Of a stretch of 64,000 nt of DNA, positions 9,706-18,093 are shown in pieces. Below the pieces are notes generated by a model, which did no database searches, was not told the origin of the DNA, and worked only from the letters and a program-made list of their open reading frames with translations. The stretch's first letter is position 1; each line of letters begins with the position of its first letter. A program made the translations under genes and the position numbers. Source of the DNA: Chloroflexota bacterium (GTDB taxonomy: Bacteria > Chloroflexota > Anaerolineae > Aggregatilineales > Phototrophicaceae); NCBI GenBank assembly GCA_011523735.1, contig WTGB01000165.1, forward strand, positions 62,001 to 126,000. The letters run 5' to 3'.

Positions 9706-11352
9706 CTAGGCGACAGCCAGGAGTCGGCGTATCGTCAGAGCCAGATGAAGCGCCAACCTAGTTTCCGGGCGATTCAGGTCGATACTTGCAATTTCGTTGA
9801 TGCGGTTCATCCGATACAGTAAAGTGTTGCGATGTACGATCAGCGACTCGGCGGTCTGCGATAAGTTGCCATGACAGTTGAAGAAAGCTTCGAGCGTCTT
9901 GATCAGATCGGCGTTTTGCCGCATATCATATTCGGTGAGAAGTCCCAGGGTGTTCTCGCAGAAATCGCTAAGCCTTTCGCGATCTGAAAGGTTCAAGATC
10001 AATTGATAGACGCCGAGATCGCCAATAAAGAGGGGGATATCGGTCTGAAGTCGCTTCGCCAATTCCTTCGCCTGCACCGCATCTCGATAGCTTGAGCGCC
10101 AGGCATTTACATCGCGCGCTACCTGACCTAAGCCTATGACGACTCGATTCTGTGGATATTGTCGTCGGACTTCCTGGCTAAATACATTCGAAAGCTTCAG
10201 ACTGTAATCAATCGGGTCGGTCCCATCGGTGGCGTGAAAAACGACAACTTCGCCTTCTTTTTCACGCGTCCAAACGAGCGCCGATGCGTCTTGGGCGGCG
10301 ATCATGGAATTGACCAATGTTTCCAGTCGGCGCAGTGACGGTTGATCGGCGCTGCTCCAGGACAATACGAAGGCGACATGAGTCTGTGTCATATTGTGGT
10401 TGAATCGCTCGCCCTGTCTTATTGCCTCCTGCTGGGTCACATCACCAAGCAGCAACCGATCAAGAAAGGTACCGCGCAGTCTCTTTTCCGTTTCGTTGAC
10501 GGCTTTCTGTTTCGCCATTTCCAGCGCGCAGGCAGCCGCACCGTGTTCACAGACGAGTTGATCAACTTCGTCCAAGTCGCCTTCTCGCCCGATGATTGAT
10601 AAATAGCCGCGCCCGACATTCTTCGTGACCACAGGTGCAACCAACCTGGCAACGCCGGAGATGGGTAGAGCCTGCATCAGTACGGGGGGATCCAATTCCA
10701 CAACCCGATGCCGGTCGTGCAACTCGACGGGTAAGTTGTCTTGCTTTTTGAGGAAGTATTCGACATCGTCCCAGATCCCGATAAGATTCGGCTGGAGTTT
10801 GTGCGAGATTGTGTGAAGCCGTTTATCTTGAATGATGACTGTTTTCTTTGTCAAGCGCGCCATAGCCCCGATAAGTTCGTTCATACCTTCATTACGCGAA
10901 GATATTTGCGTCAACTGGCGATATATCTGTGAGCCACGCCTCCCAATTTGGCTCTTGCGGTTTACAAGTAAACTAATGATCGTTTTCTCTACATCGCGAA
11001 CTCGAACATCATCAGACAAAGACAGCACCGGCACATTGAATGACTTTGCTTCCGCCAGTGCGGTCGTGCTTACCAAGCCACAGAAAACTACAGCAGAAGC
11101 ATCGACTTTCGCCGACCACTGGATGAGCTCCGTATCACTATGTGCTTTTGGGGGATTGCTCAATGGCGCGATCAAAATGAGCTCGCGCTGCTGCACGCTC
11201 TTGGAGGCAATATCGTCTTCCGGGTGGATGACAGTCGTCCAGGTGATTGAACGATCCAGCAAGCCCTCGCCAGATAGAATGTGGGTGCTTAGCGGCAGTG
11301 CCAGTTTGCGTATTTCTTCGACACTGAGATCAGTTGCTCGTGCAGTAGACAT
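9706..11352 (-). CDS. PucR-family transcriptional regulator (paralog 2)
   Basis: The 548-aa protein has the same architecture as the regulator at 2931: an N-terminal PucR domain ('RKLALPLSTHILSGEGLLDR'), a central GGDEF-like region and a C-terminal HTH ('GNLSQTAESLIVHRNTLLYR'). It is transcribed in the same direction as gltB and immediately upstream of it, separated by a 338-base gap, so it may control gltB or be co-read with it. The C-terminal halves of the two paralogs align without gaps, which suggests an old duplication. No Shine-Dalgarno is visible before the ATG, as for paralog 1. Confidence 0.87.
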   Translation of the reverse strand: MSTARATDLSVEEIRKLALPLSTHILSGEGLLDRSITWTTVIHPEDDIASKSVQQRELILIAPLSNPPKAHSDTELIQWSAKVDASAVVFCGLVSTTALAEAKSFNVPVLSLSDDVRVRDVEKTIISLLVNRKSQIGRRGSQIYRQLTQISSRNEGMNELIGAMARLTKKTVIIQDKRLHTISHKLQPNLIGIWDDVEYFLKKQDNLPVELHDRHRVVELDPPVLMQALPISGVARLVAPVVTKNVGRGYLSIIGREGDLDEVDQLVCEHGAAACALEMAKQKAVNETEKRLRGTFLDRLLLGDVTQQEAIRQGERFNHNMTQTHVAFVLSWSSADQPSLRRLETLVNSMIAAQDASALVWTREKEGEVVVFHATDGTDPIDYSLKLSNVFSQEVRRQYPQNRVVIGLGQVARDVNAWRSSYRDAVQAKELAKRLQTDIPLFIGDLGVYQLILNLSDRERLSDFCENTLGLLTEYDMRQNADLIKTLEAFFNCHGNLSQTAESLIVHRNTLLYRMNRINEIASIDLNRPETRLALHLALTIRRLLAVA

Positions 11353-11680: not shown

Positions 11681-12103
11681 TTACAGTTGACGCTCTCGCA
11701 TCAATTTGCTGTAGGCGCCTTGCCAGTCTTTGGGATCCCGTGTCATGCGGTTTATCTGGATATCTGATACGTGAGGGAAGAGGCCTATCATGACATCAGG
11801 CAGTTTGTCCCAATTATCCGTCTTTATCAGGTCTTCCAAGGACTTTGCCATGAGGGATGCCCACCACCATTTTTGCTGAAATTCGTCAGACTTTTTCCAG
11901 TAGCCGCGCTTTTCCCAGGCGCGCATTGACTCCTCAACTGTACTGTCGATACCTCGAAGGCAATAGACTAGCCAGGCGACTGAGTCCCTTGTTTCCTGGG
12001 TGATTTCTTGCTGTTGGCTCAGCCGGCGCAGAATCTCGGCGATGGTGCGCATATAGGCGCTGCGGCGTTTACCCGGGCTATTTGTGTTGATTACCCGCGC
12101 CAT
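11681..12103 (-). CDS. Conserved hypothetical protein, third gene of unknown cassette
   Basis: This 140-aa, mostly helical, soluble protein has no signal peptide or membrane segment. Its most distinctive segment is 'AWEKRGYWKKSDEFQQKWWW', which resembles a motif I remember from unnamed Chloroflexota proteins. It starts three bases after the stop of the 146-aa gene, so the two are surely cotranscribed. No catalytic motif is visible. The function is unknown; the basic N-terminus (GKRRSAYMR) would be compatible with nucleic-acid contact, which is a guess. Confidence 0.75.
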   Translation of the reverse strand: MARVINTNSPGKRRSAYMRTIAEILRRLSQQQEITQETRDSVAWLVYCLRGIDSTVEESMRAWEKRGYWKKSDEFQQKWWWASLMAKSLEDLIKTDNWDKLPDVMIGLFPHVSDIQINRMTRDPKDWQGAYSKLMRERQL

Positions 12104-12106
12104 CAG

Positions 12107-12547
12107 CTATGCCTTCGCTTCTTGATTTGAATGATGGGGCCTAATGCCACGATAGATCCTTACGCCACCTATCGTCTTCAAGATTTTTCCCGGATCCCGC
12201 CCGGTAATATCTCCCAGTTCAAGTGCGCTCAACGGCTGGTTGCCGTTTACAAGCAGAGCGCGAAATACGCTGTCGATCAGGCCGATATTCTCGCCGATAA
12301 AGTCTTCGCCTTTGGAAGACTCTTTGATCGCCAGACGCAGCGTATCCAGTTGAAAGACTTCACCTGTTTCGGGGTGGACGTAGTCAAACACCTCGCGCAG
12401 ATCGCGATGCTGTAGCGCTTTCTGTTGCTCTTGCGACAAATGGGTGAGAAGATACACCTGCAAGTCGTCACGACTGTGTTCCCACCAAGTGTAATCTATG
12501 TAGAATTTCGTTTCGACACTCGGCTTTATCAGGTAACTCAGGGACAT
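12107..12547 (-). CDS. Conserved hypothetical protein with wHTH-like C-terminus
   Basis: The 146-aa protein has an N-terminal half rich in aromatic and acidic residues ('YIDYTWWEHSRDDLQVYLL'). The C-terminal half (about 88-135) reads like a winged helix: 'DSVFRALLVNGNQPLSALEL', then 'TGRDPGKILKTIGG', then a 'RIYRGIRP' wing. It sits between the 525-aa and 140-aa genes with short gaps (16 and 3 bases). The tryptophan-rich start and the HTH suggest an adaptor or DNA-linked role, but I cannot assign a function. Confidence 0.75.
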   Translation of the reverse strand: MSLSYLIKPSVETKFYIDYTWWEHSRDDLQVYLLTHLSQEQQKALQHRDLREVFDYVHPETGEVFQLDTLRLAIKESSKGEDFIGENIGLIDSVFRALLVNGNQPLSALELGDITGRDPGKILKTIGGVRIYRGIRPHHSNQEAKA

Positions 12548-12563
12548 CTGTCATTCTCTTTTG

Positions 12564-14141
12564 CTAATTGCTCATCTTCCAGTAGTTGCCGCCGACATAA
12601 TCAAAATCCGGATTGGTCAGCAATGTCGCAAACATGGGTCCCGGCGGACACCGTCGCAACACGTTAAGCGTACTGTACAGGACTTTGGAATGAACTGTAC
12701 CCTGAGGATTTTGCTTGCTCAACTCGGGAACCAGTCCACGCAGTAACTCCGCCAAGTGCACTCCCTTGGCCTGGAGTTCCTTACCTAAGCTGTCGACTTC
12801 CGGCAGATTGGTTACGCCGACGATGATCATCTCATCATAATCAGAGCCGATGGCGCGTTTGGCTGTCTGGCATCGCAACTGGTTGCCTTCAAGCCTCTCG
12901 ACTACTGGTATCCATTCGGTTCGTGGGCGATAGGTGTCAAACTCGATTTCGATCCGGCTCTTGTCATTGGTCGGGTTCAAATACACGTATGCACCGACTG
13001 GCAAATGGTGCTTCTGGTAGAGCGGCGCCAATCCGACAACGTACTTGAATTCATGTACAACCCAACAGGGAAACTCCTGCTTGTCCAAGGCATCGACGAT
13101 AGTTATCGCAATCCGTGGGGTCTTGGCGGCTGGGAATACATATTTTGTCTCGGAATTAATGGGCAAAGTACCAACGCGCCGATGTGGATAAATCAAGGTC
13201 AGACTGACTTCTTCTTCTGGTCGAGGAGAACTTACTGGCGAATACTCATCATCAAGATCGTATTCCAATTGCAGCATTTCGCGCGTAAAGAGGCTGCGGT
13301 CAAACTCCACTGGGCTATAATGCAAAACCGTGGGAACCTGCCGCACCAAGCGCGGCAACAATCGCGTCAGATGCCAAAGCACAGTACCGGCTGGGCCCAC
13401 CTCGTCGAAGCGTTCATCTTGGTTCATACGATAATTCAGCGAAAACACCTGCAAAGGCAAGGGAGCATCGCCCAAGCCTCCAATTTCGCTTAAGATTTGC
13501 TCTGTCTTGAGCGGGCCCCCATCATGCATATCGAGCACAGCTTCAGCCAGGTGCAGATGCCCAATATCTACATCCAGCAATAGCTCGCGAACGAACCAGG
13601 TGCCGGCCAGCCGTATGAGATCAGGATTATGCTCCAGGGCATCGTTGATTTGGGCAACGATACTGATATCGGGGTCATTTAGTATGTCGGCAAATGTATA
13701 GTCTGCTTTGAGTTGGCTAGGATGCCTGTTCAGCGTATCGTCGTTGAGGGGATGTTCATTGTCGTAAGCGGTTACGAACTCGCGCAAATGATTGTCTGGT
13801 TGTTGATGTGTGTCGTCGAATTCGACGGCAGCCACCTTTATTGGACTCAAATCAGTACTTCTGCCATCGCGAACGCTGAGGACTCGGGCGGTAGCATAAT
13901 CAAGATGAGAAAAGGTAAGTCGATCACCGACCTGGTAACTATCGGATGGTCGGTATACTTTTGCGCCTTTATACTGTTGCGCAAACCGTTTCCGCTCTTC
14001 GTCTTCCCTTTTCTTGATGATCTCAGAAGCGAGTTCCATGGAGGAGAGTGGCGTCTCTTTTTCTAGCAGGAGATTGGTTATGTCTTCGATATCGTCAGCG
14101 CTGATCGAGAAGCTATATGCCCAATGTTGTGCCGGCAGCAC
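12564..14141 (-). CDS. Conserved hypothetical protein, 525 aa, multi-module with HARE/wHTH-like domain
   Basis: This is the first gene of the cassette. It starts at GTG with a GGGGGAT ribosome site; upstream the frame is open for about 30 codons without another start codon. Visible modules are: an N-terminal HTH-like segment (about 15-50, 'LLLEKETPLSSMELASEI'); a small beta-barrel-like segment (about 66-125, 'YQVGDRLTFSHLDYATARVL'); and a winged helix resembling HARE-HTH/RpoE-delta (about 190-265, 'LNYRMNQDERFDEVGPAG'). A long C-terminal beta-rich domain (about 305-525) carries 'GWERYH'-unrelated but distinctive motifs such as 'KFYVVGLAPLYQ'-like and 'PQGTVHSKVLYSTLNVLRRC'. No nuclease, ATPase or methylase motif is recognised. 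The function is unknown. Confidence 0.78.
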   Translation of the reverse strand: MLPAQHWAYSFSISADDIEDITNLLLEKETPLSSMELASEIIKKREDEERKRFAQQYKGAKVYRPSDSYQVGDRLTFSHLDYATARVLSVRDGRSTDLSPIKVAAVEFDDTHQQPDNHLREFVTAYDNEHPLNDDTLNRHPSQLKADYTFADILNDPDISIVAQINDALEHNPDLIRLAGTWFVRELLLDVDIGHLHLAEAVLDMHDGGPLKTEQILSEIGGLGDAPLPLQVFSLNYRMNQDERFDEVGPAGTVLWHLTRLLPRLVRQVPTVLHYSPVEFDRSLFTREMLQLEYDLDDEYSPVSSPRPEEEVSLTLIYPHRRVGTLPINSETKYVFPAAKTPRIAITIVDALDKQEFPCWVVHEFKYVVGLAPLYQKHHLPVGAYVYLNPTNDKSRIEIEFDTYRPRTEWIPVVERLEGNQLRCQTAKRAIGSDYDEMIIVGVTNLPEVDSLGKELQAKGVHLAELLRGLVPELSKQNPQGTVHSKVLYSTLNVLRRCPPGPMFATLLTNPDFDYVGGNYWKMSN

Positions 14142-14644: not shown

Positions 14645-14986
14645 ATGAAGTCCGCCCTTAGGTTGCGCCGCCCGGCAGACTTCGCCCGCGTAAGACGATA
14701 TGGTATAGTGCAGCGACATCCAGCTGTGATCATCAGTGTTTGTGCCAACCAACTTGTACGCAATCGATATGGAATACTGGTCGGAAAACAGTTCGGCATT
14801 GCCGTGATTCGGAATCATGTAAAACGACGCTTGCGGGCTGTATTAAGGGAATTGCATCCGCAGCTGCGGCAAGGCTTTGACATAGTCGTGGTAGCGCGGG
14901 GCGCTTTGAAAGCGCAACCCTTCAGTGAATTGAGACGTATTCTTAACGAGTTGTTCGCGCGAGCGCGGCTAATTGAGACTTCCTGA
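14645..14986 (+). CDS. rnpA: Ribonuclease P protein component
   Basis: The 113-aa basic protein assists the RnpB ribozyme in trimming tRNA 5' leaders. The family RNR signature is present as '[15 protein letters not shown]' (about 58-72). The N-terminal '[14 protein letters not shown]' corresponds to the usual 'F..v...g' start. It begins three bases after rpmH and ends one base before the preferred yidD start, so translation is probably coupled along the cluster. Confidence 0.95.
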
Positions 14987-14987
14987 A

Positions 14988-15209
14988 ATGCTACAGTGGA
15001 CCTTGCTGAATTCAATCCGTATGTACAAACGTTTTCTGTCGCCGCTGTTGCCGTCAGCCTGCCGTTTCACCCCAACCTGTTCAATGTATGCGTACGAGGC
15101 TATCGAAACTTATGGTCCCGTGAAAGGCACTTGGATGGGCTTCCGACGGCTCTTGCGCTGTCATCCTCTGCACCCGGGCGGGTTTGACCCTGTCCCTCCC
15201 AAGGAGTGA
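14988..15209 (+). CDS. yidD: Membrane protein insertion efficiency factor YidD
   Basis: This 73-aa protein helps YidC insert membrane proteins. The family signature is clear: '[20 protein letters not shown]' and '[20 protein letters not shown]', with the conserved cysteines. The ORF track begins at a TTG (14973) overlapping rnpA. I prefer the ATG at 14988, one base after the rnpA stop. Family length is about 70-85 residues. Confidence 0.94.
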
Positions 15210-15218
15210 TATTTGAAT

Positions 15219-16388
15219 ATGGCGACTCGTAAGCACATTCTCTTGATCTCTCTCCTGATGCTGGGCGTTTTTACCTTGTCCGCCTGCGTGGGCGCTCGAA
15301 TGGGTGTCAGTTGGCCGGCGGTTGGCTTGATCGATCTCTATGGCGAAACTCATATCGCGCTCGCCTATAACAACGATGTTGTGATACTCAGCCCGTCGAA
15401 TGGCGCGCCAGCCCGCCTGACAAACCCACTCAACGGCGAGGTAATGCGTGACAATGAAAATAATCCGCGTACTTGGATCTTGCGCGGTTCAGATAACGAC
15501 GGCTCGCAGTTTTTCTCGGTCCCTATACGACTTGACGATGAAACAGTACTGGTCGCCGATAACAATAGACGCTTGCTCAAAGTAGATTCTGTGGTTGTTG
15601 ATGTGCAGCGTTCTTATCCGCTTGCAGACAAAGTTTTGACCAACGTGCTTTTGGCTGGTGATACGCTCTATGTGCCGTTCCAAAATGGCGGTCTTAGCGC
15701 GATATCGCTGGAAGATTTCCAGGAAAAGTGGACGCTACCCACAGGCGCCGGTGTATGGGCGCAACCTCTGCTCGTTAACGATATGCTGATTGTGCCGTCC
15801 ATAGATCACTTCCTGTACTCGGTTGATCATTCGACTGGCCAGGTCCGTTGGTCGTTGGATTTGGGCGGCGCGGTCGCTTCAACACCGCTGCTGGCAAACG
15901 GACGCTTATACGTCGGCAGCTTCGACAAGAGCTTCTTCGAAATCTCTCTTGATGGCGAAATCCTCAATGAATATGCTACGCAGAATTGGGTCTGGGGCAG
16001 TCCAGCTATTGATGAGAATGGCATCATCTACCTCGCGGACTTAAGCGGATATGTTCATGCCCTGGACAGCGAGAGTGGCTTACGAGAACGGTGGTCGGCT
16101 CAGGTTGCCGAGCGCGGGATTCGAGCTGGTCCCCTGGTTTATGGCGAGCGCGTCATCCTGGCGTCGCGTGATGGCAAAGTATACTGGCTGGACAAGCGAG
16201 ACGGCCAATTGATCAATGCGCGGGAGATAGATAACCGGCCAGAGCTACTGGGCGACATGATGCTTTTGCAACCGAGCGAGAATCTGAACATCAATGAGCC
16301 GCTCTTGTTGGTAAGTTCAGTAGATGGGGCTCGGCTATTGATTGCGTTTGGAGTCGATGGGCGTCAAGCCTGGGTCTATCCACGCTAG
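15219..16388 (+). CDS. PQQ-type beta-propeller lipoprotein (BamB-like repeats)
   Basis: The 389-aa exported protein has a lipoprotein signal with lipobox LSAC. Repeated propeller blades follow ('YSVDHSTGQVRWSLDLGGAV', 'YVHALDSESGLRERWSAQV'), typical of PQQ-like/BamB propellers. It lies between yidD and yidC, so it may act in envelope protein assembly. In a single-membrane cell it would be tethered on the outer face of the cytoplasmic membrane. An AAGGAG lies 12 bases before this ATG and 6 before an in-frame TTG at 15213; either could be the start. Confidence 0.85.
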   Translation: MATRKHILLISLLMLGVFTLSACVGARMGVSWPAVGLIDLYGETHIALAYNNDVVILSPSNGAPARLTNPLNGEVMRDNENNPRTWILRGSDNDGSQFFSVPIRLDDETVLVADNNRRLLKVDSVVVDVQRSYPLADKVLTNVLLAGDTLYVPFQNGGLSAISLEDFQEKWTLPTGAGVWAQPLLVNDMLIVPSIDHFLYSVDHSTGQVRWSLDLGGAVASTPLLANGRLYVGSFDKSFFEISLDGEILNEYATQNWVWGSPAIDENGIIYLADLSGYVHALDSESGLRERWSAQVAERGIRAGPLVYGERVILASRDGKVYWLDKRDGQLINAREIDNRPELLGDMMLLQPSENLNINEPLLLVSSVDGARLLIAFGVDGRQAWVYPR

Positions 16389-16411
16389 TCCGGCGACTGG
16401 AGCATGATTAA

Positions 16412-17311
16412 ATGTGGGATATAATCCTTAACCCATTTGTAACGATACTCGCCTGGCTATACGCCGCGCTTAACCAGGATATTGTGCTGGCGATCGTCGT
16501 GTTGACCGTTATCATCCGCATTCTGACTTTCCCGCTTTTTGCCAAGCAGCAAGATTCACAGAAGAAAATGCAGCAGATTCAGCCACAGTTGAAGAAACTG
16601 CAAGAGAAGTATAAGGGCGATAAAGAAAAACTCTCGCAAGCCCAGATGAAACTGTATCGGGAAAACAAAGTTAATCCAGTTGGCGGTTGTTTCCCCATGC
16701 TAATCCAGTTTCCGATCTTGATCGGCTTGTATCAGGCGATTTTCTTCGCGCTGGCGGCGACGCCCTTTCAGCTGGTAGATCTATCAGAGCGGCTCTTGAT
16801 ACCCGGTCTGGATTCGCTTATACCACTGCAGCGGATGTGGACGCCCATTCCGCAACTGGCATCGTTGCTTCCCGAACTTGATTTAACGCTGGCGCCGACG
16901 GAAAACCCACCTTATGCGCTAGCACTGCCGCTCCTGGTGTTGGTGACCACTTGGGGGCAGCAAAAACTGACTATGTCCGCCACCGGTCAAAACAGGTCCA
17001 AGAAGGACGACGATGACGATGATGGCGGTGGCGCTGGCGGTCAAGCAGCAGCAATGACGAAGAGCATGACGACTATCATGCCAATTATGTTTGGATTCTT
17101 TTCGCTGTCATTTTCTGTGGGCCTGTCCATCTATTTCGTCACGTCAAACTTAATAGGCGTCGTGCAGTACAGTCCGCAGGGGAAGCGTATGTTGGAACGG
17201 GTATTCGGTCGAAAGAGCACGGACGAGGCGCCGGTGGAAGTAGTTTTTGAAGACGATGAACCCGTCAAGAAGACACGGAAGACTCGAAAGAAAAAACCTC
17301 GCAGAAAGTAA
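16412..17311 (+). CDS. yidC: Membrane protein insertase YidC/OxaA
   Basis: The 299-aa polytopic insertase has the family core: 'FPLFAKQQDSQKKMQQIQPQ', then 'NPVGGCFPMLIQFPILIGLY', and further hydrophobic segments to 'GLSIYFVTSNLIGVVQ'. It lacks the large periplasmic domain of proteobacterial YidC, as in Gram-positive SpoIIIJ types. A charged linker with a run of aspartates followed by Gly/Ala lies between the later membrane segments. The C-terminal tail is Lys/Arg-rich ('KKTRKTRKKKPRRK'), as expected for ribosome contact. Confidence 0.95.
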   Translation: MWDIILNPFVTILAWLYAALNQDIVLAIVVLTVIIRILTFPLFAKQQDSQKKMQQIQPQLKKLQEKYKGDKEKLSQAQMKLYRENKVNPVGGCFPMLIQFPILIGLYQAIFFALAATPFQLVDLSERLLIPGLDSLIPLQRMWTPIPQLASLLPELDLTLAPTENPPYALALPLLVLVTTWGQQKLTMSATGQNRSKKDDDDDDGGGAGGQAAAMTKSMTTIMPIMFGFFSLSFSVGLSIYFVTSNLIGVVQYSPQGKRMLERVFGRKSTDEAPVEVVFEDDEPVKKTRKTRKKKPRRK

Positions 17312-17352
17312 ATCAGCCCCATAGCTACCGGACGACAACAGGTGATGAAACC

Positions 17353-18093
17353 ATGGAAATGATTGAAGTGACCGCCAATTCGGTGCAGGCGGCGATTGAC
17401 AAAGGCTTGGCACAACTCAACGCGAGACCCGGCGAGGTCGTTGTCGAAGTGCTAGAGGAACCAAACACCGGCTTGTTTGGCTTTGGCGCTCGCGAGGCGC
17501 GTGTGCGTCTCGTTTTAATCAGCCGGCGCCGGGAAGAAAGGCAAAATAAATTCGACCCGGACGAGGAGATCGTCAACGAAGCCCCGGCGAATCTTCAGCC
17601 TGAGATCGTTCCTGAAGAGGAATTGGACGAAGATGCCCTTGTTGGCAAACAAGTACTCGAGGAATTGCTCGCCAAGATACGCGTAGACGCGCGGATAGAT
17701 GTCAGTTTGACGAATGATGACGAAGAAGGCGAGAAACCTCACTGGATGTTAAATATCTCCGGCAATCGTGTCAATCGCCTGATTGGCCGCCGTGGCGAGA
17801 CCTTGTCCGCGCTGCAGCATGTTGTTCGCCTTATTTGCAGTCGTCGACTCGAACGTCGGGCGAATATCATCATTGATGCCGGCGGTTATAAGTTGGGCCG
17901 GTCCAAGCGCTTGCGTGGCTTGGCAAAGCGTATGGCGAAACAAGCTGTCCAGCAGGGCAGGACGATCACCCTGGAGCCGATGCATCCTAACGAACGGCGC
18001 ATTATCCATTTGACGCTCCGCGGCCGCAACGATGTGATGACACGCAGCGTCGGCGAAGGCCGAACGCGCAAAGTTACGATTGTTCCAAAGTAA
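17353..18093 (+). CDS. jag: RNA-binding protein Jag/KhpB
   Basis: The 246-aa protein has the Jag order: an N-terminal Jag domain ('TANSVQAAIDKGLAQLNARP', 'NTGLFGFGAREARVRLV'), a KH domain around 125-190 with the GRRGETLSALQ loop, and a C-terminal R3H-like domain ('MHPNERRIIHLTLRGRNDVM'). It follows yidC, as in most Firmicutes and Chloroflexota. KhpB partners KhpA in binding RNA and affects cell elongation in other bacteria; that role is from the family. The start may be this ATG or the next one two codons on. Confidence 0.94.
   Translation: MEMIEVTANSVQAAIDKGLAQLNARPGEVVVEVLEEPNTGLFGFGAREARVRLVLISRRREERQNKFDPDEEIVNEAPANLQPEIVPEEELDEDALVGKQVLEELLAKIRVDARIDVSLTNDDEEGEKPHWMLNISGNRVNRLIGRRGETLSALQHVVRLICSRRLERRANIIIDAGGYKLGRSKRLRGLAKRMAKQAVQQGRTITLEPMHPNERRIIHLTLRGRNDVMTRSVGEGRTRKVTIVPK

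Follow-up and report, generated by a model that had tools for sequence, protein, structure and literature searches.

The question raised by this locus is whether three closely packed leftward genes form one functional unit, and which role can be proposed for products that resemble DNA-binding proteins and lack a recognisable catalytic domain. The locus lies in a 64,000-nucleotide stretch of contig WTGB01000165.1 from a Chloroflexota bacterium of the class Anaerolineae, referred to here as the window. The three genes are designated as follows:

g1: 12564..14141, minus strand; 525 aa, GTG start, with class-wide orthologues
g2: 12107..12547, minus strand; 146 aa, N-terminal segment with an F.ID..WW motif and predicted C-terminal winged helix; the partner of g1
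g3: 11681..12103, minus strand; 140 aa, conserved uncharacterised protein outside the core unit

Extent of the conserved unit

The coordinates agree with the three leftward reading frames of 525, 146 and 140 aa described in the first-pass annotation, with gaps of 16 nt between g1 and g2 and 3 nt between g2 and g3. Where dS was finite, the dN/dS ratios (NG86) against genus-mates were 0.04–0.08 for g1, g2 and g3, which indicates functional genes under strong constraint. Together with the class-wide relatives, this shows that the three genes are genuine. No significant match to any of them was obtained in Pfam, NCBIfam or PADLOC. The earlier statement that no catalytic motif can be named thus holds for these three libraries, which detected no catalytic family. 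Rfam gave no match around the genes. The neighbours on the opposite strand (14645–18093) resemble rnpA, yidC and a KH-domain gene, judged from sequence alone; such clusters recur at locus L073 of the same family and are absent from the other class loci compared. A gene for a PucR-type regulator (HTH_30, GGDEF_2; 9706–11352) is located downstream of g3 on the same strand.

The three genes had been proposed to form a cassette of fixed order. The g1 gene is present in 94 of the 98 genomes of the window's own family and in 277 of the 298 sampled genomes of the class, normally as a single copy (one in the window genome), and g2 is present in 276 of the 298. The g1–g2 unit is carried by approximately 93% of the Anaerolineae genomes. 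At 80 class loci, part of them from genomes sampled twice, the sequence downstream of g1 was long enough to hold g2; at 78 of these, g2 is the next gene on that strand. The g3 gene was found in 135 of the 298 class genomes and follows g1–g2 in the window's own family alone. In genomes of the other families compared, g3 is located on a separate contig or at a distance, as in genome G320, where approximately 78 kb separate it from g1. The inspection of 20 class neighbourhoods revealed g2 as the sole regular companion of g1, and other conserved neighbours were not found. Because g2 remains paired with g1 and g3 is separated from them, the conserved unit is g1–g2. The synteny thus rules out the three-gene cassette: in relatives the linkage is lost by g3 and kept by g1–g2. 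The undescribed conserved HARE/winged-helix unit suggested earlier is real, with two genes and not three.

Genomes without g1 or g2 mostly lack both, and they include families of small genomes. Since the two genes are adjacent, some of the joint absences may be assembly gaps. The g1 gene was not detected in some families of the class and is therefore not universally essential. In other class families (loci L086 and L087) a shortened g1 encodes the N-terminal half only, with g2 still downstream. As the half-length g1 is still paired with g2, the N-terminal half may be the minimal unit.

Domain organisation of the g1 and g2 products

The g1 product can be tentatively divided into the segments listed below. 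Apart from those of the HARE-HTH-like segment, the boundaries are estimates drawn from the alignment and a weak model.

Residues 1–58: helical/HTH N-terminal segment
Residues 59–135: barrel-like segment
Residues 136–192: intermediate segment
13347..13574, minus strand (residues ~190–265): HARE-HTH-like segment, including LNYRMNQDERFDEVGPAG
Between the HARE-like segment and the second beta segment: acidic linker
Residues ~311–440: second beta segment
Residues ~441–525: C-terminal winged-helix-like segment

A HARE winged helix had been recognised in g1 by the first-pass annotation. Residues ~195–251 were aligned to a HARE-HTH profile built from 11 Chloroflexota HARE-HTH domain sequences, which resulted in an hhalign score of 26.6, against 13.8 for the best of 50 column shuffles, and in a probability of 59%. 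With the Pfam HARE-HTH model, one of 28 g1 orthologues showed a sub-threshold match (E=0.011); the window g1 gave no match, and all 28 orthologues scanned fell below the gathering score of PF05066. The segment is thus related to HARE-HTH at the profile level with moderate strength, and to this degree the HARE winged helix is borne out. With a broader g1 alignment, neither the C-terminal segment (S7) nor the N-terminal HTH scored above shuffles against HARE in hhalign. An internal duplication of the g1 halves received no support from hhalign and was rejected.

The AlphaFold2 model of g1, built with nine genus-level sequences, has a mean pLDDT of 40 and is of no use as a check of the fold. Its HARE-like region has a pLDDT below 40, and residues 60–130 give a hint of strands only. 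These residues are the best-scoring part of this poor model, which lends slight weight to the beta-barrel-like segment claimed earlier. The model of g2 is of intermediate quality (pLDDT 68, pTM 0.59). Residues ~91–120 are modelled as a winged helix with pLDDT 76–84, and g2 orthologues show several weak winged-helix Pfam matches; both hint at the winged-helix C-terminus that had been assigned to g2. In hhalign this winged helix scored marginally above shuffles against HARE (18.5 vs 14.1). The Foldseek search of the g2 model against the PDB gave no significant fold match, and the PDB sequence searches with the g1 and g2 profiles returned insignificant matches only. No characterised enzyme matching g1 itself was found, and the earlier view of g1 as an undescribed protein stands in this respect.

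All 28 g1 orthologues that were examined are acidic proteins (pI 4.4–6.4). The HARE-like segment of g1 has a pI of 4.7, and most of the genuine Chloroflexota HARE-HTH domains compared are basic. HARE-HTH domains have been described as recognising modified-base DNA (PMC10853773) and suggested to be readers of 6mA or modified cytosine (PMC11037411). They are found in restriction endonucleases as proposed readers of modified DNA (PMC10853773, PMC11037411). The likeness of g1 to HARE-HTH (PF05066) consists of the profile match above shuffles and a shared restriction context, but g1 lies below the cut-off, is acidic and is a larger multi-domain protein without Pfam matches. The acidity of g1 argues against simple DNA binding and makes a protein–protein role of the winged helices possible.

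Relatives of g1 in restriction enzymes and beyond the class

Modules homologous to g1 were found on restriction-modification enzymes, a context of paralogues unforeseen in the first-pass annotation, and g1-like proteins also occur outside the Anaerolineae. Three features are referred to by their coordinates:

L141:5823-11984 (genome G170, contig C558): type IIG restriction-methylase of 2054 aa, starting with a complete g1-like module
L159:763-4128: 1122-aa protein with a g1-like module and a segment without Pfam match
L109:4478-7303: 942-aa natural fusion of a g1-like and a HEAT-repeat part

The 2054-aa protein surfaced in a search of genomes seemingly without g1, and its module was then used as a query. 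The N-terminal module of this protein is full-length (profile positions 22–523, i-E 6e-32; whole-genome E 2.4e-19), and the matches to Eco57I (6.8e-41), N6_Mtase (5.5e-11) and TaqI_C (9.8e-15) together with an NPPY motif identify a type IIG restriction-methylase. An adjoining gene encodes an Mrr_N protein, and the locus is probably a defence locus. Genome G110 encodes an 873-aa N6-methyltransferase (N6_Mtase, NPPF motif) with an N-terminal g1-like module (profile positions 18–524, i-E 2.7e-28); its gene belongs to an operon-like run that also contains a specificity-subunit-like gene and the genes of two more N6-methyltransferases. The 1122-aa protein of G154 has the module at its N-terminus (profile positions 16–523, i-E 1.2e-25), and its gene is followed by an N6/N4 methylase gene and by the gene for a 1891-aa exonuclease/helicase protein. 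The non-module segment of the 1122-aa protein resembles a homing endonuclease, by eye only. In G266, two Eco57I-like proteins of ~1100 aa have matches to the N-half of g1 in front (i-E 4e-11 and only 9e-5), and a 331-aa protein contains part of this half. These four genomes account for the methyltransferase fusions and neighbours.

The homology is reciprocal, since many genomes yield ordinary g1 orthologues when the restriction-enzyme module serves as the query (E to 2e-18). An ordinary g1 is also present in G110, G154 and G266, so the restriction-type modules are paralogues. In G170 an ordinary g1 was not found, and g2 is present. A copy of the restriction type is absent from the window genome at E <= 1e-4. 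The tree places the restriction modules in a clade of their own on a long stem; as the tree program warns that long branches meet, the direction of transfer cannot be read from it. The search of phages with g1 and that of plasmids with the restriction-enzyme module both returned zero matches. A methyltransferase or nuclease domain was detected neither in g1 (Pfam, NCBIfam, PADLOC) nor in a conserved neighbour at the 20 loci. The likeness to type IIG/DrmMI-like and Eco57I-like methylases is thus that of an N-terminal module, homologous to g1 in a few Chloroflexota genomes and full-length in three proteins. Unlike these enzymes, g1 is devoid of methyltransferase, nuclease and target-recognition domains. 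Since the type IIG fusion possesses a separate target-recognition domain, the g1-like module is accessory in it. The multi-winged-helix modules of DndG, SspB and FokI are similar to g1 in size and in concept, with several winged helices serving restriction systems as a DNA-engaging module (PMC10853773), but a sequence match is absent, and no PADLOC family was assigned to g1 at E up to 5. At locus L142:2831-6511 (genome G570, contig C101), a 1227-aa protein with an AAA_5 ATPase domain, a HARE-HTH domain and a sub-threshold match to EVE resembles a modification-dependent restriction protein; a neighbouring gene encodes 790 aa without Pfam match.

These fusions bear on an alternative in which g1–g2 is an RNA-polymerase- or transcription-associated factor in the style of RpoE delta, with the HARE-type winged helix contacting the polymerase and not DNA. 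The RNA polymerase delta subunit (RpoE) shares with g1 a HARE-type winged helix and acidity, and the single copy of g1 throughout the class would fit such a factor, as would archaeal TFE, the nominal best PDB sequence match of g1 (E=0.34, not significant). However, g1 differs from RpoE in size and architecture, a link to the polymerase was not found, and a conserved transcription-gene neighbourhood is absent from the 20 loci. Furthermore, it is DNA methyltransferases, and not subunits of RNA polymerase, that the homologous modules adjoin or are fused to. We therefore regard a transcription factor of this type as unlikely. Of the transcription- or chromatin-linked role suggested earlier, the chromatin or DNA link is plausible, and the specific transcription link is left without positive evidence.

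The class-wide g1 profile (A3) was also searched against 220 sampled genomes of the phylum outside the class. Diverged g1 relatives, mostly of 550–730 aa and mostly covering profile positions 146–513, were found in 31 of them. These include a genome that we take to be Chloroflexus aurantiacus J-10-fl, and others that are presumably Roseiflexus sp. RS-1 and Herpetosiphon aurantiacus. At 13 non-class g1-like loci a HEAT-type gene adjoins in eight and is fused in one, the HEAT identity being given by Pfam for L097 and L109 and by sequence clustering for the remaining loci. The pairs and the fusion would suit a chromosome-organisation or DNA-repair scaffold. Yet in Anaerolineae g1 has no linked HEAT partner, and no specific pathway can be read from HEAT repeats, so that such a scaffold appears rather unlikely as the function of g1–g2. 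Diverged relatives of g2 that stand alone are present in 34 of the 220 genomes, and most of those aligned have cysteines spaced as in a possible zinc site, a pattern absent from the window g2. Near three g2-only loci of other Chloroflexota classes (L065, L067 and L068) lies a gene of one cluster, with a macrodomain protein in L065; two of the three are also near a gene resembling signal peptidase I.

Proposed role of the g1–g2 pair

We give about an even chance to the explanation that g1–g2 is a resident chromosomal complex based on a DNA- or modification-engaging module that is also used by restriction enzymes. The two genes would form a housekeeping unit that Anaerolineae inherit vertically and keep in single copy. 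The g1 product would be a multi-domain adaptor or reader composed of the HTH-like segment, the barrel, the HARE-type winged helix, the second beta segment and the terminal winged-helix-like segment. Its entire length is homologous to the module found at the N-terminus of N6-adenine DNA methyltransferase/restriction enzymes. The g2 product, a small winged-helix protein, would be the co-transcribed partner of g1. Together they would engage either a protein bound to DNA or the chromosomal DNA itself, by its sequence, structure or methylation state. The pair would act as a resident factor of the chromosome and would itself neither methylate nor cut DNA. What the data show is conservation, pairing, selection, a likeness to HARE and methyltransferases fused to homologous modules; we infer co-transcription, a physical g1–g2 complex, engagement of DNA and any reading of its modification. 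It is possible that g1 acts as an adaptor, or that g1–g2 contacts RNA polymerase.

That the pair instead serves defence or restriction-modification, as a reader component whose methylase or nuclease is encoded elsewhere in the genome, is suggested by the type IIG/DrmMI-like and HsdM-like loci that contain g1-like modules, but is very unlikely given the near-universal, one-copy and not patchy distribution of g1–g2 in the class, the strong purifying selection, the absence of conserved defence neighbours and of PADLOC matches, and the lack of detected phage or plasmid relatives.

For the resident chromosomal complex, a more specific reading can be proposed, in which g1–g2 is a domesticated, enzyme-free restriction-modification module, a resident factor that reads DNA methylation or the state of the chromosome. 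Such a unit would resemble a chromatin reader, in a previously undescribed bacterial form; we consider this version speculative and its truth doubtful. It would document that restriction enzymes and the core chromosome machinery have exchanged modules, with no direction given by the tree. The pair is carried by more than 90% of an environmental class that is large and poorly studied, and the libraries searched contain no domain annotation for it. The link to a module of restriction-methylases provides a concrete, testable hypothesis for the function of g1–g2.
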